DNA of 53,157 nucleotides, taken from the NCBI GenBank assembly GCA_005240145.1, contig SBAS01000069.1, forward strand, positions 1 through 53,157, given 5' to 3'. The notes below the pieces were generated by a model. The model was given only the letters and a program-made list of their open reading frames with translations. It did not search any database and was not told where the DNA came from. The position numbers and the translations under genes were made by a program. Source of the stretch: Nitrosomonadales bacterium. GTDB taxonomy: Bacteria > Pseudomonadota > Gammaproteobacteria > Burkholderiales > SG8-39. Below are positions 13,648 through 25,280 of this stretch, one piece after another (the first letter of the stretch is position 1; the number at the start of each line of letters is the position of its first letter).

Positions 13648-15669
13648 ATGATCTACGCCGCGACGATTTTCCTGTCTTCATTCCTGCTGTTCCTCGTGCA
13701 GCCGCTGATCGCGCGCCAGATCCTGCCCTGGTTCGGCGGCACCGCAGCGGTGTGGACGACCTGCATGCTGTTTTTCCAGACGCTGCTGCTCGCGGGGTAC
13801 GCCTACGCACACGCGACCAACGCGAAGCTGCAGCCGCGCGAGCAGGCAGTGGTGCACACGGTGCTGCTCGCGGCCGCGCTCGCGCTGCTGCCGATTGCGC
13901 CCAACGCAATGTGGGCGCCGACGGGTGCCGAGGAGCCGATCACGCGCATCCTGCTGGTGCTCACGGCAACCGTGGGACTGCCCTACCTGCTGCTCGCTTC
14001 GACCAGCCCGCTATTGCAGGCCTGGTTCGCGCGCGCGCGGCCCGGCGTCGATCCCTATCGCCTCTTCGCGGTGTCGAACCTGGCCTCGCTGCTGGCGCTG
14101 GTCGGCTATCCGCTCGCGGTCGAGCCCTTCCTGGGTGGCCGCGAGCAGGTGATCTGGTGGTCCATCCTGTTTGTTCTTTTTGCCGTTTTTTGTGCCGGAT
14201 TGTCCTGGTCCATTTCAGGGAAAAAAGAAGAAAAGAAAAAAACAATGGAGAACACCGCGCCGCCGCGCCGCGCCGACTACTTGCTCTGGCTGGCGCTCTC
14301 GGCCACCGGGTCGGTGCTGCTGCTCGCGGTGACCAACCACGTGACGCAGAACGTCGCGGCCATCCCGCTGCTGTGGCTCGCGCCGCTCACCCTGTACCTG
14401 CTCACCTTCATCCTCGCCTTCGAGGGCGGCATCCTGGGCTTCAACCTGTACCGGGCGGAGATTTTCTGGACGGTGGTCCTCGTCTGGCTGTGCGGCATGG
14501 CCTGGATGCTGGTCGACTCCCGCTACCAGTTCGACCTGTGGCTGCAGGCCGGCATGTTCCTCTCGGGCCTGTTCGTCGGCTGCATGTTCTGCCACGGCGA
14601 GCTGTATCGCGCGCGGCCGGCGGCGCGGCACCTGACCGCGTTCTACCTCACCATTTCGGCCGGCGGCGCGATCGGCGGCCTGCTGGTCGCAGTCGTGGCG
14701 CCGCTCGCCTTTCGTGCCTATGACGAGCTCGGCATTTCGCTGATCCTGCTCGCGGTGCTTGCGGCGGTGCGCTTTGCGTCAGTCAACCGATTCGCGCGCT
14801 GGGGGAGCCTGGCCGTGCTGCTCGCGGTGGCCGCTTGCACCACGTACGACAGCTCGCGCTTCGCCAAGGACGTGCGCGTATCGGCGCGCAATTTCTACGG
14901 CGTTCTGCGGGTGAAGGAGTACGGCGGCGCGGACCGGAGCTACCACCTGCGCCGGCTCGTGCACGGCGCAATCATGCACGGCGAACAGGACATGGTCACG
15001 GACGGACGGCGCCGGCCATCGACCTATTACCAGACCAGTTCGGGCGTGGGCGCCGCGGTGGTGGCGAAACAGGCGAAGGGCGCGATGCGCGTCGGCGTGA
15101 TCGGGCTGGGGACCGGGACCCTCGCCGCGTACGGGCGCAAGGGCGATGTCTACCGCTTCTACGAGATCAACTCCCAGGTCATCGCGATCGCGCGCACCGA
15201 ATTCAGCTACCTGGGCGACAGCGCGGCGACGATCGAAGTGGCCCTGGGCGATGCGCGCCTGAATCTCGAGCGCGAGCCGGCGCAGGGCTTCGACGTGCTC
15301 GCGGTGGATGCATTCTCCAGCGACGCGATCCCGGTGCACCTGATCACGAAGGAGGCCCTGGGCGTATACCTGCGGCACATGAAACGCGACGGCATCATTG
15401 CGTTTCACGTCTCCAACCGGTTCCTCAGCCTCGTGCCGGTGGTGGCGCGGCTGGCGCAGGAGCACGGCGCGCACGCGGTGCTGGTCTCGGACAAGGGCAA
15501 GGACGGCGACGACGACCACACCACCACCGACTGGGTGCTGGTGTCGCGCGAACGCAGCGCGCTCGAGGCGGCGGAGATCGAGGCGGTATCGCCCGAAACG
15601 CCCGAATCGAAGCCGGGCTGGCGCACCTGGACCGACGACTACTCGAACCTGGTGCAGATCCTCAGATAG
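13648..15669 (+). CDS. fused MFS-like membrane domain and spermidine synthase-like domain protein
   Basis: The 673-residue protein has about a dozen hydrophobic helices in its first 400 or so residues, starting FLSSFLLFLVQPLIARQILPWFGG. A C-terminal Rossmann methyltransferase-like domain of the spermidine synthase family (about 410-670) follows, with VGVIGLGTGTLAAYG, YEINSQVIAIA, GDARLNLE and DVLAVDAFSSDAIP. Such fusions are common in Proteobacteria, and their reaction has not been settled. A polyamine or other small-molecule transferase linked to transport is inferred. It begins 8 bases after the purB stop, so it is likely co-transcribed. A short A-rich stretch around 14219-14245 codes a charged KKEEKKKT linker. 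Confidence 0.85.
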   Translation: MIYAATIFLSSFLLFLVQPLIARQILPWFGGTAAVWTTCMLFFQTLLLAGYAYAHATNAKLQPREQAVVHTVLLAAALALLPIAPNAMWAPTGAEEPITRILLVLTATVGLPYLLLASTSPLLQAWFARARPGVDPYRLFAVSNLASLLALVGYPLAVEPFLGGREQVIWWSILFVLFAVFCAGLSWSISGKKEEKKKTMENTAPPRRADYLLWLALSATGSVLLLAVTNHVTQNVAAIPLLWLAPLTLYLLTFILAFEGGILGFNLYRAEIFWTVVLVWLCGMAWMLVDSRYQFDLWLQAGMFLSGLFVGCMFCHGELYRARPAARHLTAFYLTISAGGAIGGLLVAVVAPLAFRAYDELGISLILLAVLAAVRFASVNRFARWGSLAVLLAVAACTTYDSSRFAKDVRVSARNFYGVLRVKEYGGADRSYHLRRLVHGAIMHGEQDMVTDGRRRPSTYYQTSSGVGAAVVAKQAKGAMRVGVIGLGTGTLAAYGRKGDVYRFYEINSQVIAIARTEFSYLGDSAATIEVALGDARLNLEREPAQGFDVLAVDAFSSDAIPVHLITKEALGVYLRHMKRDGIIAFHVSNRFLSLVPVVARLAQEHGAHAVLVSDKGKDGDDDHTTTDWVLVSRERSALEAAEIEAVSPETPESKPGWRTWTDDYSNLVQILR

Positions 15670-15735: not shown

Positions 15736-16569
15736 TTACGCGCGGAATGCGGCCTTGTCGGTACCCTGGTAGAGCGCCTTGACCTGGCGGCCGATCGCAT
15801 CGGCGTGCGCAGCTAGCGCGGCCTCGTCCAGGTCGGCCTTCGGCCGCGGCTCCAGGTCGAAATGACCGTACGTGTCCGTGCCGCGAACGAGCGTCGCCGA
15901 GTCGCGCACCTTGGTCTGGCGCACGTAGGTCGGGATGTAGCGGATGGACATGCCGATGCGCCGGTCGTTGGTGCGGTTGGCATCCGAGCCGTGCACGAGC
16001 TTGATGTGGTGCAGGGACATTTCTCCGGCGCCCATCGCCAGACCCACCGCCTTCGACTTGTCTACCGCCACCGCGATTTCCTGCCCGCGGGACAGCAGAT
16101 TGTCCTTGTGGAAGGTATCCACGTGCGGCAGCTGGTCGATCAGGTGGCTGCCTGGGATCACCTGCATGTAGCCGTTCTCCGGCGTGACCTCGGTGAAGGC
16201 GACCCACGCGGTGATGACGTGGTCGGGATCCAGGCCCCAGTAGGTCGAGTCCTGATGCCACGAGACGAAGCCGGGACTACTCGCTTCCTTGATGAAGAAA
16301 TTGGTGGTCCAGCAGAGGATGTCCGGTCCGATGCAGTCCTCGACCGCGTCCAGCACTTTCGGATGGTGGACCAGCTCGTCGGCCCAGGTGAAAAGCAAGT
16401 GCATCTTGTGCCGCCAGTTGCCCTGGATCGGTTTGCCGGTCTTCGCCTCGTGCGCTTCCAGCGCGGCTCGATAGCGCTGCGCGTCGGCGGCGGACATCAC
16501 GCGCACCGGGGAGTAGTAGCCGTCGCGCCGGTAGGCGGCGGTCGCGTCGCTGGACAGCAGTTTGGGCAT
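15736..16569 (-). CDS. phytanoyl-CoA dioxygenase family Fe(II)/2-oxoglutarate enzyme (copy 1)
   Basis: The 277-residue enzyme has the double-stranded beta-helix iron triad: His105 and Asp107 in SWHQDSTYWGLD, and distal His193 in LVHGSDANRT. Arg203-204 lie nearby for 2-oxoglutarate. PhyH-family enzymes hydroxylate small molecules; the substrate is unknown. The ATG at 16569 has GCAGGAG upstream on its strand. It is divergent from the GntR regulator, with a 21-base palindrome (16607-16627) between them, so it is probably a target of that regulator. A second PhyH-family gene lies at 21352 in the same island. Confidence 0.88.
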   Translation of the reverse strand: MPKLLSSDATAAYRRDGYYSPVRVMSAADAQRYRAALEAHEAKTGKPIQGNWRHKMHLLFTWADELVHHPKVLDAVEDCIGPDILCWTTNFFIKEASSPGFVSWHQDSTYWGLDPDHVITAWVAFTEVTPENGYMQVIPGSHLIDQLPHVDTFHKDNLLSRGQEIAVAVDKSKAVGLAMGAGEMSLHHIKLVHGSDANRTNDRRIGMSIRYIPTYVRQTKVRDSATLVRGTDTYGHFDLEPRPKADLDEAALAAHADAIGRQVKALYQGTDKAAFRA

Positions 16570-16606
16570 CGATGGGGCTCCTGCAGCGGGCCTCGTCCCG
16601 CACCGT

Positions 16607-16627
16607 TGATATACTACATGCATATCA
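16607..16627. promoter_or_regulatory. 21-base palindrome, candidate GntR operator A
   Basis: TGATAT (16607-16612) and its complement ATATCA (16622-16627) flank 9 bases. The site lies 38 bases upstream of the PhyH start and just before the GntR gene, which suits autoregulation and divergent control. On the minus strand it begins TGATATG, as does the site at 17479-17497. Confidence 0.45.
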
Positions 16628-16650
16628 CCGCAGTGCTGAAGGAGGCACGC

Positions 16651-16761
16651 ATGGCCGAGGTCAGGGCGGGGACGTTTCCGGACGACGACCAAAGCTATGG
16701 CGTCGACGACAGGGAGCACGAAAAATTCCTCGGCCTCGTCCAAAAGCGCAGGCACGCGTAG
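16651..16761 (+). CDS. 36-codon open frame with a strong ribosome-binding site
   Basis: AAGGAGG (16639-16645) lies 5 bases before this ATG, the best Shine-Dalgarno match in the neighbourhood. The frame encodes 36 residues rich in Asp, Glu and Lys (MAEVRAGTFPDDDQ...) and stops at 16761 just before the helix-turn-helix region of the GntR gene, which is in another frame. It may be a leader peptide or an unrelated small protein. Alternatively it may be the original start of the GntR gene, now separated by an indel. I recognise no family. Confidence 0.3.
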   Translation: MAEVRAGTFPDDDQSYGVDDREHEKFLGLVQKRRHA

Positions 16762-17438
16762 CGGCGCGCGCGGGGCGCGGCGCCCGCGCCGGCGCCCCGC
16801 AGTCGCTTACCGACCGCGCCTACACCGCGCTGGAGGAAATGATCGTGCGCCTGGAGCTGCCGCCGGGCAGCGCGGTGTCCGAAGCGATCCTGTCAAAGCG
16901 CCTGCGCATCGGCCGCACGCCGATCCGCGAGGCGCTGCAGCGCCTCGCGCGCGAGCGGCTGGTGCAGATCCTGCCGCGCCGTGGCGTGATCGTCTCCGGC
17001 ATCGACGTCAAGGCGCAGCTGCGCCTGCTGGAAGTGCGCCGCGAGCTCGAGCGGCAGGTGGCGCGCAGCGCCGCGCGTCGGGCGAGCGCGGAAGAGCGCG
17101 GCCGGTTCGGCGCATTGGCCACCGCATTCACGAAGGCCGCGCGCACCGGCGACGACGTGGCGTTCCTGCGCACCGACCGCGATTTCAACGAGTTGTGCCT
17201 CAAGGCGGCGCGCAACGAATTCGCCAGCACCGCGATGCAGCTGATGGCCTCCCTGTCGCGGCGCTTCTGGTTCCTGCACTACAAGCAGGCGGCTGACATG
17301 CCCGAAACCGCCAGGCTGCACGCCGACATCGCGCTTGCGATCGCCGCGGGCGATCCGGACGCTGCCGCGCGGGCCGCGGACGCCCTGCTGGACAACATCG
17401 AGACGTTCACGCGAAACACCGTGAGCACCGATTTTTGA
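16697..17438 (+). CDS. GntR-family transcriptional regulator, FCD subfamily (N-terminus unresolved)
   Basis: The winged helix-turn-helix (SLTDRAYTALEEMIVRLELP, RIGRTPIREALQRL, RERLVQILPRRGVIVS) is followed by an all-helical FCD ligand domain (LLEVRRELERQVARSAARR, FNELCLKAARNEF, HADIALAIAAGD). FCD regulators sense carboxylic acids and repress adjacent catabolic genes. The start is uncertain. The uninterrupted frame opens at 16572, across the operator. The natural-looking N-terminus MASTTGSTKNSSASSKSAGT begins at 16697 in another frame. One surplus G in the GGGG run at 16772-16775 would join that N-terminus to the DNA-binding domain, so an assembly or real indel is likely. It probably controls the dioxygenase, hydroxylase and TRAP genes around it. 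Confidence 0.8.
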
Positions 17439-17478
17439 GCGCTACAGCGGCACAGCACTCCGGGCGGCGCAAGCCTAG

Positions 17479-17497
17479 ACATATGGCTAACATATCA
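17479..17497. promoter_or_regulatory. palindrome upstream of the hydroxylase/TRAP genes, candidate GntR operator B
   Basis: ATATG (17481-17485) and CATAT (17491-17495) flank 5 bases. Read on the minus strand from 17497 the site begins TGATATG, like the minus-strand reading of the palindrome at 16607-16627. It lies 28 bases before the ATG at 17525. Both are candidates for the same regulator; the spacers differ (9 and 5 bases), so the match is only partial. Confidence 0.4.
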
Positions 17498-17524
17498 GCA
17501 CAATCCACGCTTTAGGAGGCGCCC

Positions 17525-18349
17525 ATGGCAGAACTCGTCGACCGCCACGAACCCGCCGAGCGCCAGCTCAGGTTCCGCGAGCAGTACCAGGCGCAGATCC
17601 ACCCGCTGTACAGCGGCCCGGTGCACGTCGGGGTGATGTATGCCGTCGGCCTGTCGGTCATCGCCTGGTGCGTGTCGCGGCTCGAGAACGCGGGCGTGGA
17701 ATGGCTGCTCGTGCTCCCGGTGTTTTTCTTCTCCAACCTGTTCGAGTGGTGGATCCACAAATATGTGATGCACCGGCTGGTCGACGTGTGGGCGCTGCGG
17801 GCGATCTACGACCGGCACACGCGCCAGCACCACCAGTATTTCACCGACAGCGAAATGAGCGTCTCGACGACGCGCGAGTGGCGGGTCATATTCTTTCCGT
17901 GGCGGGCGCTGTTCACGTTCATGGCCCTCGGCACGCCGCTTGCGTTCCTGCTCGGCTGGCTGCTGAACCCGAATGTGGGCTACATCCTCATGGTGACGAT
18001 GGTCGGCCAGTACCTGATCTACGAGACCTTCCACTACTGCTGCCACGTGCGCGACAACTGGTTCGTGCGCCACATGCCGTTCGTCAACACCATCCGGCGG
18101 CATCACTTTGCGCACCACAACTTCGGCATCATGATGACCTGCAACATGAACCTTACCTTCCCGATCGCCGACTGGGTGATGGGCACGAGCGACGTGAAAC
18201 GCGGCCTGATCGGCACGCTTTTCAACGGCTACAATGAAGATTACGTGCGGCCCGAGCTCAAGCCGACGATCGAGCGGTTCCGCCGCCCGGACGCGCCGGT
18301 TTCGATCGATGGACCGATCATGGAGCCGGGCCGGCAGCAGCCGGCCTGA
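17525..18349 (+). CDS. sterol desaturase/fatty acid hydroxylase superfamily protein
   Basis: The 274-residue integral membrane protein has the histidine clusters of the diiron hydroxylase superfamily: HKYVMH, HTRQHHQ, FHYCCH and HHFAHHN. Hydrophobic helices surround them (about residues 35-60, 62-80, 120-165). Members hydroxylate or desaturate lipids, sterols or small hydrophobic acids using O2 and an electron donor. AGGAGG (17514-17519) precedes the ATG by 5 bases. The TRAP binding-protein gene begins 35 bases after its stop, so it appears to be the first gene of the island's transport/oxidation operon. Confidence 0.88.
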   Translation: MAELVDRHEPAERQLRFREQYQAQIHPLYSGPVHVGVMYAVGLSVIAWCVSRLENAGVEWLLVLPVFFFSNLFEWWIHKYVMHRLVDVWALRAIYDRHTRQHHQYFTDSEMSVSTTREWRVIFFPWRALFTFMALGTPLAFLLGWLLNPNVGYILMVTMVGQYLIYETFHYCCHVRDNWFVRHMPFVNTIRRHHFAHHNFGIMMTCNMNLTFPIADWVMGTSDVKRGLIGTLFNGYNEDYVRPELKPTIERFRRPDAPVSIDGPIMEPGRQQPA

Positions 18350-18384
18350 GCGGACACGCCAAGGAAACCGAGGAGGAATTACCT

Positions 18385-19446
18385 ATGAAAAAGAGAGATT
18401 TTCTGAAGGCTGGAGCAGTCGCGGCTGCGCTAGCAATTCCTGCCGCTGCCCGCGCGCAGGGCGCCAGCTACAACTGGAAGATGGCCACCGGTTGGGGCGG
18501 CGGCCCGCTGATGGACATCGGCGCCAAGGCGTTCGCCGAGAAGCTGGAGCAGTTCAGCGGCGGCCGCTTCAAGATCCAGGTGTTCCCGGGCGGGGCGCTC
18601 GGCAACGCGCTGAAGGTCCCGGAAACGGTCAAGAACGGCATCGCCGAGCTAGGGCATACGTGGATCGGCTACGACTGGGGCAAGGACCCGACCACGGTCC
18701 TGTTCGGCGGCTATGCCGGGTCTTTCGACACCGAGCGCATGCTGCACTGGTTGTACGAAGCGGGTGGCGCCGACATGCAGCGCAAGTTCCGCGACGAGAC
18801 CGAGGGCGTCGTTTCGCTGATCCTGTTCATCCGCACCGCAGAGGCCTTCCTGCATTCGAGAAAACCGGTGCGCACGCTGGCCGACCTGAAGGGCCTCAAG
18901 CTGCGCACGGCCGGCGCCTGGCTGGAGATGGCGAAGGGCCTGGGCGCGGCGCCGGTGACGACCGCCGGCGGCGACGTCTACCCGATGCTGGAGCGCGGCG
19001 CGCTCGACGCCACCGAGTGGGGCACGCTGTACGAGAACATTTCGATGGGTTTCCACAAGATCGCCAAGTACATCATCTATCCCGGCGTGCACCAGCCTAC
19101 CGCGCCCTTTGAGCTGTGCATCAATAAAGAGGCCTGGGGCAAGCTTTCTGACGCCGACAAGAAGCTGGTGGAGACGGTCGCGAAGCTGGTGACCTTCGAG
19201 AGCTGGTTGAAGATCGGGCAGGAAGACGCCAAGGCGCTGGACTTCTACAAGAAGGCGGGCAACACCATCATCGAACTCGCTCCCGAAGTGCAGTACGCCG
19301 GGCGCAAGATCGGCCTGGACTGGGCGGACAAGACCGCCAAGGAGGGCAAGTACCCGCATTTCGCCGCGGTGCTCGAGAGCCAGAAGGCGCACGATGCGCT
19401 CTGGAAAGGCGCCGCAGGCTGGCGTACCGTCAAGGTCAAGAACTGA
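18385..19446 (+). CDS. TRAP transporter substrate-binding protein (DctP type)
   Basis: The 353-residue protein has an N-terminal export signal (KKRDFLKAG followed by a hydrophobic stretch and an AARAQG cleavage site). The KR pair before DFLK is close to, but not exactly, a twin-arginine motif. The mature part begins YNWKMATGWGGGPLMDIGAKAF and contains the DctP/TakP-like motif GLKLRTAG (about residues 171-178), where the ligand carboxylate is normally bound, and GGDVYPMLERGALDATEW. It captures an organic acid in the periplasm for the DctQM permease encoded next. GAGGAGGAA precedes the ATG. An intrinsic terminator follows, which would make this subunit more abundant than the permease. Confidence 0.93.
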   Translation: MKKRDFLKAGAVAAALAIPAAARAQGASYNWKMATGWGGGPLMDIGAKAFAEKLEQFSGGRFKIQVFPGGALGNALKVPETVKNGIAELGHTWIGYDWGKDPTTVLFGGYAGSFDTERMLHWLYEAGGADMQRKFRDETEGVVSLILFIRTAEAFLHSRKPVRTLADLKGLKLRTAGAWLEMAKGLGAAPVTTAGGDVYPMLERGALDATEWGTLYENISMGFHKIAKYIIYPGVHQPTAPFELCINKEAWGKLSDADKKLVETVAKLVTFESWLKIGQEDAKALDFYKKAGNTIIELAPEVQYAGRKIGLDWADKTAKEGKYPHFAAVLESQKAHDALWKGAAGWRTVKVKN

Positions 19447-19466
19447 GGCCGCGCTGCTGGCTCGAA

Positions 19467-19491
19467 GGGGCGCTCACGCGCCCCTTTTTTT
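19467..19491 (+). terminator. intrinsic terminator between dctP and dctQ
   Basis: GGGGCGC (19467-19473), a TCAC loop and GCGCCCC (19478-19484) are followed by seven T (19485-19491). It is the clearest intrinsic terminator in the window. Its place inside the TRAP operon suggests partial termination, raising the ratio of binding protein to permease. Confidence 0.85.
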
Positions 19492-19518
19492 CGCGGTCGG
19501 CGCGCGGGAGGGAATCCC

Positions 19519-20022
19519 TTGGATGCGGTGATAAGAACGATTGAACGCCTGACCGGCAGCGTCGGTATTCTGGCATCGCTGGCGATCGTGCCCCTGGTTG
19601 CGGCAACCTGCTACGAGGTTTTCGCCCGCTACCTCTTCAATGCGCCGACGATCTGGGCCTACGAAGTGGGCTACATCCTCACCGGGTCGCATTTTCTGCT
19701 CGCGATGGCCTACACGCTGCGCGAAGGCGAACACATCCGCATCGACATTTTCAGCACCAGATTCTCGCCGCGCACACGCGCCGTCATCGATCTGGTCAGC
19801 TACACGGTGGTCCTGCCCCTGATGCTCTGGCTCACCTACGCCCTTTTCAGCCACCTCGCCACGGGCTTCCTGCGGCACGAGCGCAGCGGCCAATCGGCGA
19901 TGAACCTGCCGGTCTGGCCGTTTCGCGTGGTGTTCCTGGTCGCGTTCAGCCTGCTCGCCCTGCAGATTTTCGCCGAAGTGATCAAGACCATCCGCAGGTT
20001 CCGTTCGGGCGGGGCAGGGTGA
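19519..20022 (+). CDS. TRAP transporter small permease (DctQ type)
   Basis: The 167-residue protein has four hydrophobic helices and the DctQ motif EVFARYLFNAPTIWAYEVGY (about residues 34-53). It pairs with the large permease and with the periplasmic receptor upstream. The TTG start at 19519 is supported by GGGAGGG about 6 bases upstream; a GTG three codons later is possible. The stop shares one base with the ATG of the large permease, so the two are translationally coupled. Confidence 0.9.
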   Translation: MDAVIRTIERLTGSVGILASLAIVPLVAATCYEVFARYLFNAPTIWAYEVGYILTGSHFLLAMAYTLREGEHIRIDIFSTRFSPRTRAVIDLVSYTVVLPLMLWLTYALFSHLATGFLRHERSGQSAMNLPVWPFRVVFLVAFSLLALQIFAEVIKTIRRFRSGGAG

Positions 20023-21341
20023 TGGATTTCCTGCCGTTCTTCATGCTGCCGGTGGCATTCACCCTGATGTTCCTGGGTGTGCAGGTGGCCTTTTCGATGA
20101 TGATTACCGCGGTGCTGTTCGGCCTGGTGATCTTCGGCAACCGCGTCATCTTCCAGTTCGTGGAGAAGATCGAGGACATCTCGTCCAATTTCGTGTTCGC
20201 CGCGGTGCCGCTGTTCGTGTTCATGGGCGCGATGCTGGAGAAGTCGGGCATCGCCGACAAGCTGTTCGAGGCGATCCACATCTGGACGCGGCGCCTGCCG
20301 GGGGGGCTCGCGATCGCGACCATCCTCATGTGCATCATTTTCGCCGCCTCGAGCGGCGTCATCGGCGCCACCGAATCGGTGGTGGGCCTGCTCACCATCC
20401 CGATCATGCTGCGCTACGGCTACGACAAGGCCCTGATTTCGGGCGTCATCACCGCGGGCGGTTCGCTCGGCACCATCATCCCCCCCTCGGTGGTGGCGGT
20501 GGTGATGGGTCCGCTCGCCAACGTATCGGTGGGCGACCTGCTCTACGGCATGGTGTTCCCGGGGCTGATCATGGCCGGGCTGTACCTGGTCTACATCCTG
20601 GTCCTGTGCGTGCTGCAGCCACGGCGCGGCCCGCGCATCCCGCCTGAGCCCGGCGACCCCAGCTTCGGCGAAAAGCTCTGGATCACCACGCGCAATCTGG
20701 TGCCGCCGCTGTTCATGATCTTCGCGGTGCTGGGTTCGATCCTGCTCGGCTGGGCCTCGCCCACCGAAGCGGCGGCGATCGGCGCGCTCGCCTCGGTATT
20801 GCTGACCGCCCTCTACCGGCACTTCACCTGGGGCGGGCTGTACGAGGCGCTGCTGAAGACGGTCAAGATCACCACCATGATCATGACGGTGCTGCTCGCC
20901 GGCACCCTCTTCACGGGCGTATTCATCGGCGGCGGCGGCATCAACACCGCCAGCATCCTCATCAACAAGATGCAGCTTTCGCCGTGGATGCTGCTCTCCC
21001 TGATGATGTTCATCATCTTCATCGCCGGCTTCTTCCTGGACTGGATCTCGATCGTGCTCATCTTCGTGCCGCTGTTCACGCCGCTCATCACGGCCGCGGG
21101 CTTCGACCCGGTGTGGTTCTGCGTGCTGTTCCTGATCATGATCCAGACTTCCTACCTCACCCCGCCGATGGCGCCGGCGATCTTCTACCTGCGCGCCGTG
21201 GCGCCGCCCGAGATCACCATCCGCGACATGTACCGCGGCGTGGTGCCGTTCATCGTCTTGCAGTGCGTGACGCTGGTGATCGCGATGGTTTACCCTCCGC
21301 TGGTGACTTGGCTGCCGAGCGTGATGCTGACCTTCAAATGA
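20022..21341 (+). CDS. TRAP transporter large permease (DctM type)
   Basis: The 439-residue membrane protein has about twelve hydrophobic helices and family motifs: VPLFVFMGAMLEKSG, AASSGVIGATESVVGLLTIP, GVITAGGSLGTIIPPS and GFFLDWISIVLIFVPLFTP. It forms the Na+-driven channel of the TRAP system with DctQ. The ATG at 20022 overlaps the DctQ stop; a GTG one codon earlier is an alternative. The dioxygenase gene begins 10 bases downstream, which links uptake to oxidation of the imported compound. Confidence 0.94.
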   Translation: MDFLPFFMLPVAFTLMFLGVQVAFSMMITAVLFGLVIFGNRVIFQFVEKIEDISSNFVFAAVPLFVFMGAMLEKSGIADKLFEAIHIWTRRLPGGLAIATILMCIIFAASSGVIGATESVVGLLTIPIMLRYGYDKALISGVITAGGSLGTIIPPSVVAVVMGPLANVSVGDLLYGMVFPGLIMAGLYLVYILVLCVLQPRRGPRIPPEPGDPSFGEKLWITTRNLVPPLFMIFAVLGSILLGWASPTEAAAIGALASVLLTALYRHFTWGGLYEALLKTVKITTMIMTVLLAGTLFTGVFIGGGGINTASILINKMQLSPWMLLSLMMFIIFIAGFFLDWISIVLIFVPLFTPLITAAGFDPVWFCVLFLIMIQTSYLTPPMAPAIFYLRAVAPPEITIRDMYRGVVPFIVLQCVTLVIAMVYPPLVTWLPSVMLTFK

Positions 21342-21351
21342 GGAGATTGCC

Positions 21352-22257
21352 ATGACTCCAGAGCAGGTACTCGCCACCCCGCCGCGCGTGCTCACCCAGG
21401 CGCAGCGCGAGTTCTATTTCGCCGAGGGCTACCTCTGCATCGAGCGCGCCATCGGCGCGGACTGGATCGCCAGGCTGCGCGCCGCGACCGAGGAACTGGT
21501 CGAGCGCAGCCGCGCAGTGACGAAGTCGGATGCGGTGTTCGACCTCGAGCCCAAGCACCGCCCCGAGGCGCCGCGCCTGCGCCGCGTCTCGAACCCGGTC
21601 GAGCAGCATCCGGTCTTCTGGGAGTACTGCCTGCACTCGCCGCTGCCGGACATCGTCGCCGACCTGGTGGGGCCGGATGTGAAGTTCCACCACTCCAAGC
21701 TCAACTTCAAGTGGGCGCAGGGCGGCGAGGAAGTGAAATGGCACTACGACATCAGCTTCTGGCCGCATACCAACTATTCGCCCCTGACGGTGGGCACCTA
21801 CCTGTACGACTGCGGCATGGAGCAGGGGCCTCTGGGCGTGATGCCGCGCAGCCACCTGATCGATCCGATGCTCTCGCAGTACGACTCCGGGGGAAACTGG
21901 ACGGGATGCCTGTCGGAGGCCGACTGCGCGAAACTGGACCTGTCCAGGGCGGTGTTCCTGCCGGGTCCGGCCGGATCCCTGACCATCCATAACTGCCGCA
22001 CCCTGCATTACTCCGCGAAGAACGAATCGGACCTCGGCCGGCCGCTGCTCCTGAACACGATGACCTCGGCGGACGCTTTTCCGTACACCGTGAACCCGAT
22101 CAAGCCGAAGCATGACCAGTACGTCGTCCGCGGCAAGCGCGCCCTCTTCGCGCATCACGACCCGCGGCCCTGCCTGATTCCGCCGGACTGGTCGAAGGGC
22201 TATACCTCGATTTTCGCGCTGCAGCAGGAAGAGAAAGAGGAGCTCGTCGCGCGCTGA
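21352..22257 (+). CDS. phytanoyl-CoA dioxygenase family Fe(II)/2-oxoglutarate enzyme (copy 2)
   Basis: The 301-residue enzyme carries the iron ligands His131 and Asp133 in VKWHYDISFWPH and a distal histidine in TIHNCRTLHYSAKN. These are followed by RPLLLNTMTSADAF, where the 2-oxoglutarate-binding arginine is expected. GAGGAGA precedes the ATG at 21352. Located directly after the TRAP permease, it is likely to hydroxylate the imported substrate. The two PhyH-family proteins of the island share motifs but are clearly divergent and probably act on different compounds or steps. Confidence 0.88.
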   Translation: MTPEQVLATPPRVLTQAQREFYFAEGYLCIERAIGADWIARLRAATEELVERSRAVTKSDAVFDLEPKHRPEAPRLRRVSNPVEQHPVFWEYCLHSPLPDIVADLVGPDVKFHHSKLNFKWAQGGEEVKWHYDISFWPHTNYSPLTVGTYLYDCGMEQGPLGVMPRSHLIDPMLSQYDSGGNWTGCLSEADCAKLDLSRAVFLPGPAGSLTIHNCRTLHYSAKNESDLGRPLLLNTMTSADAFPYTVNPIKPKHDQYVVRGKRALFAHHDPRPCLIPPDWSKGYTSIFALQQEEKEELVAR

Positions 22258-22305
22258 AGCGGCCGACGCCGTCGGCTGAACCGCCACTTTCACGGGAGAA
22301 CCGCA

Positions 22306-22698
22306 ATGGGCGCAGACGAGCCTCGCATCCTTCCAAAGACAGGGAGCTTTCTCGCCGAGGGGTCCAAACTCCCGACCGTCCGGATGGGCGTGCTTGAAGG
22401 TCAGGCGAGCGCCGGGCACGTTGACCTCAAGCCCCTGATGGTGGGCGAGGACATGTTGATGATCGAGCTCTTCGAGAAGGCCGGCGTGCGCGTGCCTGAG
22501 CACTCGCACGACGATCACGAGTCGGTGGTCTATCTGGTCAAGGGAAGGATGAGGCTCGTGATCGATGGCAAGGAATTCATCGCGCAGGCCGGGGACGCGT
22601 GGATCCATCCGAAAGGCGTGAAGCACTGGAGCGAAACCCTCGAGGACTGCCTGGCGATCGAGATCAAGTCGCCGCCGCGCAAGACCTGGAACACCTGA
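22306..22698 (+). CDS. cupin-domain protein
   Basis: The 130-residue single-domain protein has a cupin core: PEHSHDDHESVVYLVKGRM supplies the motif-1 His and Glu metal ligands, and PKGVKHWSE supplies the motif-2 histidine. Small cupins bind metal ions and act as isomerases, decarboxylases, dioxygenases or ligand-binding proteins; the reaction here is unknown. It follows the dioxygenase by 48 bases. Its 3' end abuts the remnant of a minus-strand DUF1330 gene. Confidence 0.85.
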   Translation: MGADEPRILPKTGSFLAEGSKLPTVRMGVLEGQASAGHVDLKPLMVGEDMLMIELFEKAGVRVPEHSHDDHESVVYLVKGRMRLVIDGKEFIAQAGDAWIHPKGVKHWSETLEDCLAIEIKSPPRKTWNT

Positions 22699-22760
22699 TG
22701 CGGCTCCTGGTACTTCTCGGGATTGGTGACATTGATTTGGGCGATGTGGTAGGCAGGCAT
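22697..22760 (-). pseudogene. 5' remnant of a DUF1330-like gene
   Basis: On the minus strand, an ATG at 22760 preceded by GGAAAG starts a reading frame MPAYHIAQINVTNPEKYQE. This is the typical N-terminus of DUF1330 proteins (small dimeric alpha/beta-barrel enzymes). After about 21 residues the frame runs into the antisense strand of the cupin gene, where no further similarity is seen. The rest of the gene has therefore been lost, probably when the cupin gene was joined here. Confidence 0.6.
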
Positions 22761-22814
22761 GGCTTTCCGCGCGGCGACCGGTTGCGGAATTGTCGAGCAT
22801 AGAATGAAAGCACC

Positions 22815-23564
22815 ATGACAGATTCCCTCGGTCACCGCGCCAAGTTCGGCGTGCTCGCCCCCTCCACCAACACCTCGGTGCAGCCCGAGTTCGACGCCAT
22901 GCGGCCTTGGGGCGTGACGCACCACCACTCGCGCCTTGTCATCCCCGACAGCAAAGTCACCGGCGACAAGAGCTTCCTCGCGATGATGGATGGCATCCGC
23001 AACGCCCTTTTCCCGGCGTTCGAGGCGGTGCTGACTTGCAGCCCGGACTACGTGGTGCTCGGCATGTCCGCCGAGACTTTCTGGGACGGCCTCAAGGGCT
23101 CGAAGAAGTTGCAGCGCGCGCTCGACAAGGTAGCGAAGGTGGGCGTGTGCATGGGCTCGGACGCCTGCCAGGCCGCGCTACGTGCGTACGGGCGCAACAT
23201 CAAGCGCCTGGGCATCATCACCCCCTACATGCCGGTCGGCGACCGCCAGGTTTACCGCTTCTTCACCGAGTGCGGCTTCGAAGTGGTGAACCTCCTCGGC
23301 CTCAAGTGCAGGAGCCCGCAGCTCATCGCGCACGAGTCGAAGCGCACGCTGCGCGACGCCATCAACAGCGTGAACAAGGGCAAGGTCGACGCCATCGTGC
23401 AGGTCGGCACAAACCTCGCCATGGCGGAAGTCGCCGCCATGGCCGAGTTCTGGCTCGACAAGCCGGTGCTCGCCATCAACACCGCCACCTACTGGTACGC
23501 GCTGCGCCAGTACGGCATCAAGGACAGGATCCACGGCTGGGGCTCTCTCCTGGCGGAGCACTGA
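22815..23564 (+). CDS. arylmalonate decarboxylase/maleate isomerase-like protein lacking the family cysteines
   Basis: The 249-residue protein has the Asp/Glu racemase fold seen in arylmalonate decarboxylase and maleate cis-trans isomerase: GVLAPSTNTSVQPEFD at the start, RLGIITPYMPVGDRQVYRFF in the middle and WLDKPVLAINTATYWYALR near the end. Active members use one or two cysteines. The corresponding positions here read GMSAETFWDG (Met-Ser) and VQVGTNLAMA (Val-Gly), without Cys. It therefore either uses other chemistry or is not a cysteine-dependent isomerase. It is the last plus-strand gene of the GntR/TRAP island. A TAGAAT box lies 9 bases before its ATG, so it may have its own promoter. 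Confidence 0.75.
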   Translation: MTDSLGHRAKFGVLAPSTNTSVQPEFDAMRPWGVTHHHSRLVIPDSKVTGDKSFLAMMDGIRNALFPAFEAVLTCSPDYVVLGMSAETFWDGLKGSKKLQRALDKVAKVGVCMGSDACQAALRAYGRNIKRLGIITPYMPVGDRQVYRFFTECGFEVVNLLGLKCRSPQLIAHESKRTLRDAINSVNKGKVDAIVQVGTNLAMAEVAAMAEFWLDKPVLAINTATYWYALRQYGIKDRIHGWGSLLAEH

Positions 23565-23587: not shown

Positions 23588-24328
23588 CTACCCCGCCGTG
23601 TAGCCGCCATCCACCGGCAGCGCCACGCCGGTCACGTATGCGGCTTCGTCGCTCGCCAGATAGAGGATCGCCGCCGCGATCTCCTCCGGCTGGCCGAAGC
23701 GGGCCAGCGGGTAGCGCTTGAGCACAGCCTGCGCCCAGGCCGGATCGCGCCGCAGCGCGGCGGTCATCGGGGTCTCGATCACGCCCGGGCAGACGCAGTT
23801 CACCCGCACTTTCGGCGCCCATTCGAGCGCCATCTGGCGAGTGAGGTTGACGATCGCGCCTTTCGATGCCGCGTACGCCACGCCGGTGGAGCCGCCAACC
23901 AAGCCGAAGATCGATGCGAGGTGCGTGATCGACCCGGCGCCGCTCTCCAGCAGTGCCGGTAACGCCGCGCGTGAAGCCAGGTAGCTGCCGTTGAGATTGA
24001 TATCGACCACGCGTCGCCACTCCCCGGCCGTCGGTGTCGGGCCGGGCGTCTCGGGCCGCACCCCCGCCGAGTTCACCAGCGTGGTCAGGGCGCCGAAGCG
24101 CGCGAGCGCGGCCTGCACCATGCGCGCGCAGGCCGCCTCGTCCGTGACATCGGCACTCAACGCGATCGCCGCACCGCCCTGCGCCTCGATCCTCTGCGCG
24201 GTCTGCGTGGCGGCATCCTCGGCGACATCCACGCACGCGAGCTTCGCTCCTTCGGCGGCGAACCGCAGCGCCGTGGCGCGGCCCAGCCCCGATCCCGCGC
24301 CGGTCACCAGCGCGACCTTTCCGTTCAT
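23588..24328 (-). CDS. short-chain dehydrogenase/reductase (SDR)
   Basis: The 246-residue classical SDR has the cofactor motif TGAGSGLG (residues 9-16), VNSAG, and the catalytic YAASK with the preceding serine in LASIFGLVGG. PVDGGYTAG closes the protein. It oxidises or reduces an alcohol/ketone; the substrate is not known. The ATG at 24328 was chosen because AGGA lies 5 bases upstream; another ATG two codons earlier (24334) lacks that spacing. It lies just downstream of secF in the same direction and may be read with the sec operon. Confidence 0.9.
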   Translation of the reverse strand: MNGKVALVTGAGSGLGRATALRFAAEGAKLACVDVAEDAATQTAQRIEAQGGAAIALSADVTDEAACARMVQAALARFGALTTLVNSAGVRPETPGPTPTAGEWRRVVDINLNGSYLASRAALPALLESGAGSITHLASIFGLVGGSTGVAYAASKGAIVNLTRQMALEWAPKVRVNCVCPGVIETPMTAALRRDPAWAQAVLKRYPLARFGQPEEIAAAILYLASDEAAYVTGVALPVDGGYTAG

Positions 24329-24335
24329 CCGCATC

Positions 24336-25280
24336 CTAGACGACTGCGCCCTCATTCTTGTCGTCGAGGGGATTTTTCTTCGGCGCGTGCACGAACTGGG
24401 CGCGATCGACGCCGAGCCACATGACGAGCGGGCTCGCCACCAGCACCGAGGAGTAGATGCCGAAGCAGATGCCGATGGTGAGCGCGAGCGCGAAGTAGTG
24501 CAGCGCCGGGCCGCCAAAGAGCAGCATGGTGGTGGCCATGGCCTGGGTGCAGGCGTGCGTGATGATGGTGCGCGAGATGACGCCGGTAATGGCGCTGTCG
24601 ATCACCTCGGGCACGGAAGCCTTCCGCATCTTGCGGAAGTTCTCCCTCACCCGGTCGAACACCACCACCGACTCGTTCACCGAGTAGCCGAGCACCGCGA
24701 GCACCGCCGCGAGCACGGGCAGGGAGAATTCCCACTGGAACAGGGCGAAGAATCCCAGGATGATGATCACGTCGTGCAGGTTGGCGATGATCGCGGCGAG
24801 GCCGAAGCGCCACTCGAAGCGGATCCAGAGGTAGATGACGATGCCCACGGCGGTCACGAGCAACGCCAGCGCGCCGTATTCGGCCAGTTCCTCGCCGACC
24901 TGCGGCCCGACGAATTCGACGCGCCGCACCTCGGCGGTGGCGTCCTCGGTCTTGAGCAGGGCGGTGACCTTCTGCGACACATCGGCGGTCGATTGGCCCT
25001 TCACCACCGGCAGGCGGATCAGCACGTCGCGCGAGGAACCGAAATTCTGCACTTCGCCCTTGAGACCGGCTTTGTCGAGCGTCTCGCGGATCGCCTCGAC
25101 TTTTGCGGCGTCCTTGTAGTTCACCTCGACCAGCGTGCCGCCGGTAAATTCAACCGAGAAATGCAGGCCGTTGTAGGCGAGGAAGAAGACCGCGGCGGCG
25201 AAGGTGGCGAGCGAAATGATGTTGAAGACGAGCGCATGCCGCATGAAGGGAATGACGCGGCGGATTTTGAAGAATTCCAT
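24336..25280 (-). CDS. secF: protein translocase subunit SecF
   Basis: The 314-residue protein has an N-terminal transmembrane helix, a periplasmic region that starts HFSVEFTGGTLVEV, and the conserved membrane block GYSVNESVVVFDRVREN, which is the SecD/SecF proton-conducting signature. SecDF pulls translocated proteins from SecYEG on the periplasmic side using the proton gradient. It lies 15 bases after secD. The C-terminal tail is short and charged. Confidence 0.96.
   Translation of the reverse strand: MEFFKIRRVIPFMRHALVFNIISLATFAAAVFFLAYNGLHFSVEFTGGTLVEVNYKDAAKVEAIRETLDKAGLKGEVQNFGSSRDVLIRLPVVKGQSTADVSQKVTALLKTEDATAEVRRVEFVGPQVGEELAEYGALALLVTAVGIVIYLWIRFEWRFGLAAIIANLHDVIIILGFFALFQWEFSLPVLAAVLAVLGYSVNESVVVFDRVRENFRKMRKASVPEVIDSAITGVISRTIITHACTQAMATTMLLFGGPALHYFALALTIGICFGIYSSVLVASPLVMWLGVDRAQFVHAPKKNPLDDKNEGAVV

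Follow-up and report, generated by a model that had tools for sequence, protein, structure and literature searches.

The stretch of DNA considered here (termed the window) comprises all 53,157 nucleotides of contig SBAS01000069.1 from a Nitrosomonadales bacterium (assembly GCA_005240145.1; 3.24 Mb in 130 contigs). Between positions 15669 and 24336 it harbors an inserted block of genes, which includes a GntR regulator, an importer and several predicted hydroxylases. The first gene, PhyH1 (15736-16569, minus strand), encodes an Fe(II)/2-oxoglutarate dioxygenase whose relatives include ThoJ (PDB entry 6zyk; E = 3.7e-56). On the plus strand there follow an FCD-type GntR regulator with both FCD and GntR domains (16800-17438); a diiron membrane hydroxylase of the fatty-acid-hydroxylase superfamily (FAH; 17525-18349), whose match to PF04116 is marginal (31.9 bits versus a cut-off of 31); the TRAP solute-binding protein DctP (18385-19446), a relative of TakP and TTHA0766, with the small permease DctQ (19519-20022) and the large permease DctM (20019-21341); a second Fe(II)/2-oxoglutarate dioxygenase, PhyH2 (21352-22257), which has the widest distribution of any gene in the system; a cupin (22306-22698); and a cysteine-less protein of the arylmalonate-decarboxylase fold (22815-23564). 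Family searches found every gene listed in an earlier reading of the window (termed here the sequence-only reading), in the order given and with intact open frames; a short-chain dehydrogenase (23588-24328, minus strand), which that reading did not mention, shares the inserted block.

The limits of the block are defined by relatives in which the flanking gene pair is joined at the same site. In four genomes of the same genus the left flank ends at 15662-15668 and the right flank, whose gene is secF, starts at 24336-24338, with only 1, 4, 17 or 66 bp between the two; a DNA search identified further relatives with likewise joined flanks and no block between them. In one of the four empty-site genomes, G211, the conserved part of the island is present on a different contig (locus L120).

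Protein searches of six families (FAH, PhyH2, PhyH1, DctP, the cupin and the arylmalonate-decarboxylase-like, or Amdase-like, protein) across 98 family genomes indicate which of these genes travel together. FAH and PhyH2 each occur in 24 of the 98 genomes and both occur in 20 (Fisher p = 2.7e-13; such values count genomes as independent though they are related, the informative part being the contrast between partner and non-partner families). DctP occurs in 17 genomes, all of which also have PhyH2, and PhyH1 orthologues (at least 68% identity) in 21, of which 18 have PhyH2. The pairs also lie close together, at most 25 kb apart in 16 of 19 genomes for FAH and PhyH2, in 15 of 16 for DctP and PhyH2 and in 13 of 17 for PhyH1 and PhyH2; and a search with the window DNA against the same genomes recovers GntR-FAH-DctPQM-PhyH2 as one block, at 83% identity in G211. 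A scan of 84,980 genomes for PhyH2 yielded 71 loci, and gene order within these and 20 family loci places FAH, TRAP, GntR and PhyH1 repeatedly beside PhyH2. GntR, FAH, DctPQM, PhyH2 and the nearby PhyH1 thus constitute a real, repeatedly co-located system.

The sequence-only reading had grouped all of the genes from PhyH1 to the Amdase-like gene into one island and had proposed a search for their conserved co-occurrence. Among the 98 genomes the core families do co-occur; together with their co-location and a shared operator (described below), this upholds the grouping for the GntR, TRAP, two-PhyH and diiron genes, but not for the cupin and the Amdase-like gene, whose neighbors change freely. 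The cupin was found in three of the 98 genomes and in none of the PhyH2 loci, and is best regarded as a local addition outside the conserved system. The Amdase-like gene, likewise a local addition, occurs in ten genomes, only three of which have PhyH2 (p = 0.46), and in both of the non-window genomes having the two they lie on different contigs; as an anchor for the system it was rejected, its orthologues occurring in unrelated neighborhoods. Neither gene is preceded by the operator. The protein's affiliation with the arylmalonate decarboxylase and maleate isomerase (Asp-Glu racemase) family comes from its match to the Pfam Amdase model (38 bits), yet it differs from that family in that GMSAE and VGTNL replace the two cysteine motifs. 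Glycine occupies both catalytic cysteine positions, the one in VGTNL aligning with the C-terminal active-site cysteine of the decarboxylase homologue 2dgd, and these motifs are kept in eight aligned sequences (with L037 varying in the first). Because the catalytic cysteines are absent, the family's cysteine chemistry is unavailable, so that a concluding decarboxylation or isomerization, as envisaged in the sequence-only reading, loses its support. The pathway in which that step follows import and hydroxylation, with the cupin taking part, is therefore almost certainly wrong, even though the two genes are co-directional with PhyH2, lie within 1.3 kb of it and share the same inserted block. The cysteine-less clade itself comprises the window protein and members at L028, L029, L030, L039, L136 and L139; at several loci its genes lie near CoA-transferase-like, FAD-monooxygenase-like and other catabolic genes, and at L039, an unrelated cluster, a cupin (57% identity) is close to a distant Amdase-like homologue (38%).

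The promoters of PhyH1 contain a near-perfect palindrome, TGATATRTYA. When every promoter of the fetched loci was examined, this motif was present in 85 of 558 island-gene segments as against 7 of 653 others (counts that include near-relative loci and so are not all separate events), whereas each of 29 permuted palindromes used as controls occurs zero to two times. By gene, it precedes the corrinoid operon found in certain relatives (considered below) in 14 of 14 cases, FAH in 24 of 30, the second TRAP importer in 9 of 17 (where some sites fall in an intergenic region shared with PhyH1), DctP in 6 of 27, and PhyH1 in 20 of 35, this last count not being independent because the motif was first read in PhyH1 promoters. 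Within the window, a putative operator of this type, TAACATATCA, is located at 17488-17497, 37 bp before FAH. A perfect operator-like inverted repeat, TGATAT-N9-ATATCA (16607-16627; 0.17 expected when up to two mismatches are allowed), lies between PhyH1 and GntR, and related sites occur in the PhyH1 promoters of relatives. An Azospirillum brasilense plasmid likewise has FAH, TRAP, PhyH2, GntR, a kinase and an enolase together (by gene calls made here), with TGATATRTYA before FAH; because Azospirillum is alphaproteobacterial, the arrangement crosses classes. The GntR/TRAP/two-PhyH/diiron set is thus apparently co-regulated, and the FCD-GntR protein is the putative binder of TGATATRTYA, to which the enrichment points circumstantially.

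Segment 15736-22257 is a reduced copy of this conserved regulon, inserted between genes that are adjacent in relatives. Relative to L120, with which it is colinear and whose GntR is 86% identical, it is missing the first GntR, the second TRAP, a flavin adenine dinucleotide (FAD) oxidoreductase and both genes for PanB-type ketopantoate hydroxymethyltransferases. What is left of PanB is a scar (16651-16761, plus strand) of about 35 C-terminal codons, aligning end to end with residues 258-292 of the L120 PanB, behind a PanB promoter (window positions 16602-16660 match the L120 PanB promoter and start). Apart from ATG 16572 and, inside the domain, ATG 16839, ordinary start codons are missing from around the winged-helix domain of the GntR frame; possibly the start codon was lost through the PanB deletion just upstream. 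Such losses, namely the PanB scar, the missing GntR1, second TRAP and FAD oxidoreductase, and the unclear GntR start, could mean that the copy in the window is decaying and no longer functions. This is unlikely, inasmuch as PhyH1, FAH, DctPQM and PhyH2 all retain intact frames, with catalytic or binding residues conserved where checked, and both operator sites are retained.

Regarding what the system imports, DctP, DctQ and DctM are all present, intact and above their Pfam cut-offs, and the alignments of DctP with TakP and TTHA0766 span the greater part of the protein (E = 8e-39 and 8e-42, respectively). Four of six TakP site residues (Tyr100, Arg177, Glu214 and Trp215; PMC1839085) are conserved in the window DctP, whereas Gln156 and Glu240 are exchanged for Glu and Gln, respectively; among 26 orthologues the six positions are invariant except in one sequence. 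A carboxylate ligand, as proposed in the sequence-only reading, is compatible with a pocket that keeps the Tyr, Arg, Glu and Trp of TakP, and there is moderate support, from these alignments, for the prediction that DctPQM imports a small 2-oxo- or 2-hydroxy-carboxylate.

In PhyH2 the iron ligands H131, D133 and H219, along with the 2-oxoglutarate arginine R230, are invariant among 32 sequences; in PhyH1 (194 bits to 6zyk) the corresponding HQD, H and R are recognizable by reading, as are the intact histidine clusters HX4H, HX3HH and HHxxHH of FAH. The predicted structure of PhyH2 (mean predicted local distance difference test score, 88.6) has as its closest solved folds GriE, EctD and proline hydroxylase H11, ahead of an acyl-CoA enzyme; these nearest-fold enzymes are hydroxylases of free small molecules. 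At the family level, PhyH2, PhyH1 and FAH would thus be expected to hydroxylate the imported carboxylate. That EctD, GriE, SnoK and MysH are the nearest enzymes to PhyH2 in sequence or fold would also fit a role in modifying a secondary metabolite or compatible solute (ectoine, for instance, is hydroxylated by EctD) instead of in degradation. This is quite improbable: importers and a GntR regulator share the operon; the formate dehydrogenase, formate-tetrahydrofolate ligase (Fhs) and enolase of relatives indicate catabolism; and scores against the ectoine models fall far under their cut-offs (40.7 versus 336.5 bits for EctD/ThpD and 54.4 versus 318 for EutA), whereby ectoine utilization or hydroxylation was rejected. 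PhyH2 relatives of 54-65% identity also occur with no partner genes, at L101-L107 and L115 (Actinomycetospora, Pseudonocardia) and at L111 and L114, and may show the ancestral reaction.

Additional regulon members in relatives suggest what the hydroxylation might serve. One operator-bearing operon, located directly before or after PhyH2, encodes by family search a corrinoid protein (MtgC-like), RACo and a DUF1638 protein, and in relatives the same operon includes an MtaA/CmuA-type URO-D methyltransferase, a methyl-tetrahydrofolate:corrinoid methyltransferase and a MetF-type reductase; RamA/RACo and DUF1638 proteins are reported partners in B12 reactivation (PMC5764234, PMC12478193). At ten or more loci PhyH2 comes directly after the corrinoid operon. 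PanB-type enzymes adjoin PhyH1 and GntR, and relatives also carry Fhs, an enolase, a kinase related to methylthioribose kinase, formate dehydrogenase, and a second TRAP and other importers. In all, 25 of the 47 loci of at least 12 kb include a one-carbon, folate or corrinoid gene. As to individual loci, L062, L067, L090, L126, L132 and L133 are variants that encode a CmuA-like methyltransferase fused to a corrinoid protein, usually in two copies, along with a third PhyH within a sugar-type ABC transporter operon; in L075, L109, L127, L130 and L151 PhyH2 is followed by two genes, one methylthioribose-kinase-like and the other an enolase (exceeding the enolase cut-off wherever a score was obtained), with a GntR intervening in L151, and this pair possibly forms a route from glycerate to phosphoenolpyruvate.

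Because the regulon of relatives holds one-carbon, folate and corrinoid genes, the system can be read as one for the catabolism of methyl-bearing compounds; in this interpretation the window has a reduced copy of a catabolic regulon that imports a small carboxylate, hydroxylates it and strips methyl or hydroxymethyl groups from it to tetrahydrofolate, to which an even chance is assigned here. In mechanistic terms, the FCD-GntR protein would be released from TGATATRTYA by the substrate or a metabolite; an arginine and a cation would hold the small 2-oxo- or 2-hydroxy-carboxylate that DctPQM takes in; hydroxylation of the imported acid would fall to PhyH2, PhyH1 and FAH; and methyl (or hydroxymethyl) groups would be removed and passed to tetrahydrofolate. 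In relatives a corrinoid system or PanB-type enzymes would perform this transfer, whereas the window organism, having neither nearby, would be left with formaldehyde release or with hydroxylation alone. A broader and more tentative proposal is that of an aerobic methyl-stripping regulon, in which different lineages, using a single regulator and operator, recruit dioxygenases, FAH, B12 methyltransferases and reverse-acting PanB onto a methylated and possibly hydroxymethylated carboxylate whose carbons enter folate; candidate substrates may include methoxylated sugar acids and mycosporine-like compounds.

A rather doubtful alternative is that the core oxidizes a non-methylated small acid (for example, a branched 2-oxo- or 2-hydroxy-acid) while the corrinoid and PanB genes belong to separate pathways that share the regulator and act on co-occurring compounds. 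The core does occur with no one-carbon enzyme in the window and at many loci, DctP resembles 2-oxoacid and lactate binders, and an IlvD-type dehydratase lies beside PhyH2 in Indioceanicola (on an annotated plasmid); set against this, the adjacency of PhyH2 and the corrinoid operon, together with the operator in every instance of the latter, suggests one shared metabolism.

Several observations weigh against the methyl-stripping interpretation or the recurrence behind it. Corrinoid modules are confined to 12 of the same 47 loci, a minority; 12 PhyH2 loci (actinobacterial, Tistlia and some others) are without any partner; many loci share descent, so that their recurrence is not all independent, nor is the PhyH1 operator count; and two DctP pocket positions are unlike those of TakP. 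No substrate-specific enzyme fixes the compound: the wider flanks of relatives contribute PanB and formate dehydrogenase without revealing any enzyme that would define the substrate, and the dehydratase, kinase and enolase in the Indioceanicola annotation and Azospirillum gene calls offer hints that do not pin it down. The inserted block contains no corrinoid gene by family search, and a corrinoid system elsewhere in the window genome (96% complete) was rejected, as no RACo was found there; the one PanB of that genome is distant, sharing 30-31% identity with those of the island. With no RACo and only this PanB, methyl transfer to folate is not demonstrable in the window genome.

The papers searched include work on B12 reactivation, but none was found to describe this gene combination; hence the suggestion in the sequence-only reading that the system might be undescribed has held up, and the system is apparently both real and undescribed. 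It recurs in numerous uncultured Betaproteobacteria, most of them from fresh water, where several alternative importers and enzymes of B12 methyl transfer often accompany it, and it is also present in the cultured Azospirillum brasilense and Piscinibacter sakaiensis 201-F6. Should it consume a methylated carboxylate, lakes and soils would contain a supply of one-carbon units that has gone unrecognized; given the shared operator and the cultured carriers, the question of substrate is directly testable.

Two further groups of known systems invite comparison. EctD, GriE, proline hydroxylase H11 and MysH have the PhyH fold and iron ligands in common with PhyH2, yet EctD and other PhyH enzymes acting on free substrates are only about 20-25% identical to it. 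The corrinoid methyltransferase set of the folate-feeding CmuA, MtgBC, O-demethylase and RamA/RACo systems resembles that of the operon in relatives, which differs from these in its association with TRAP importers, FAH and PhyH dioxygenases.

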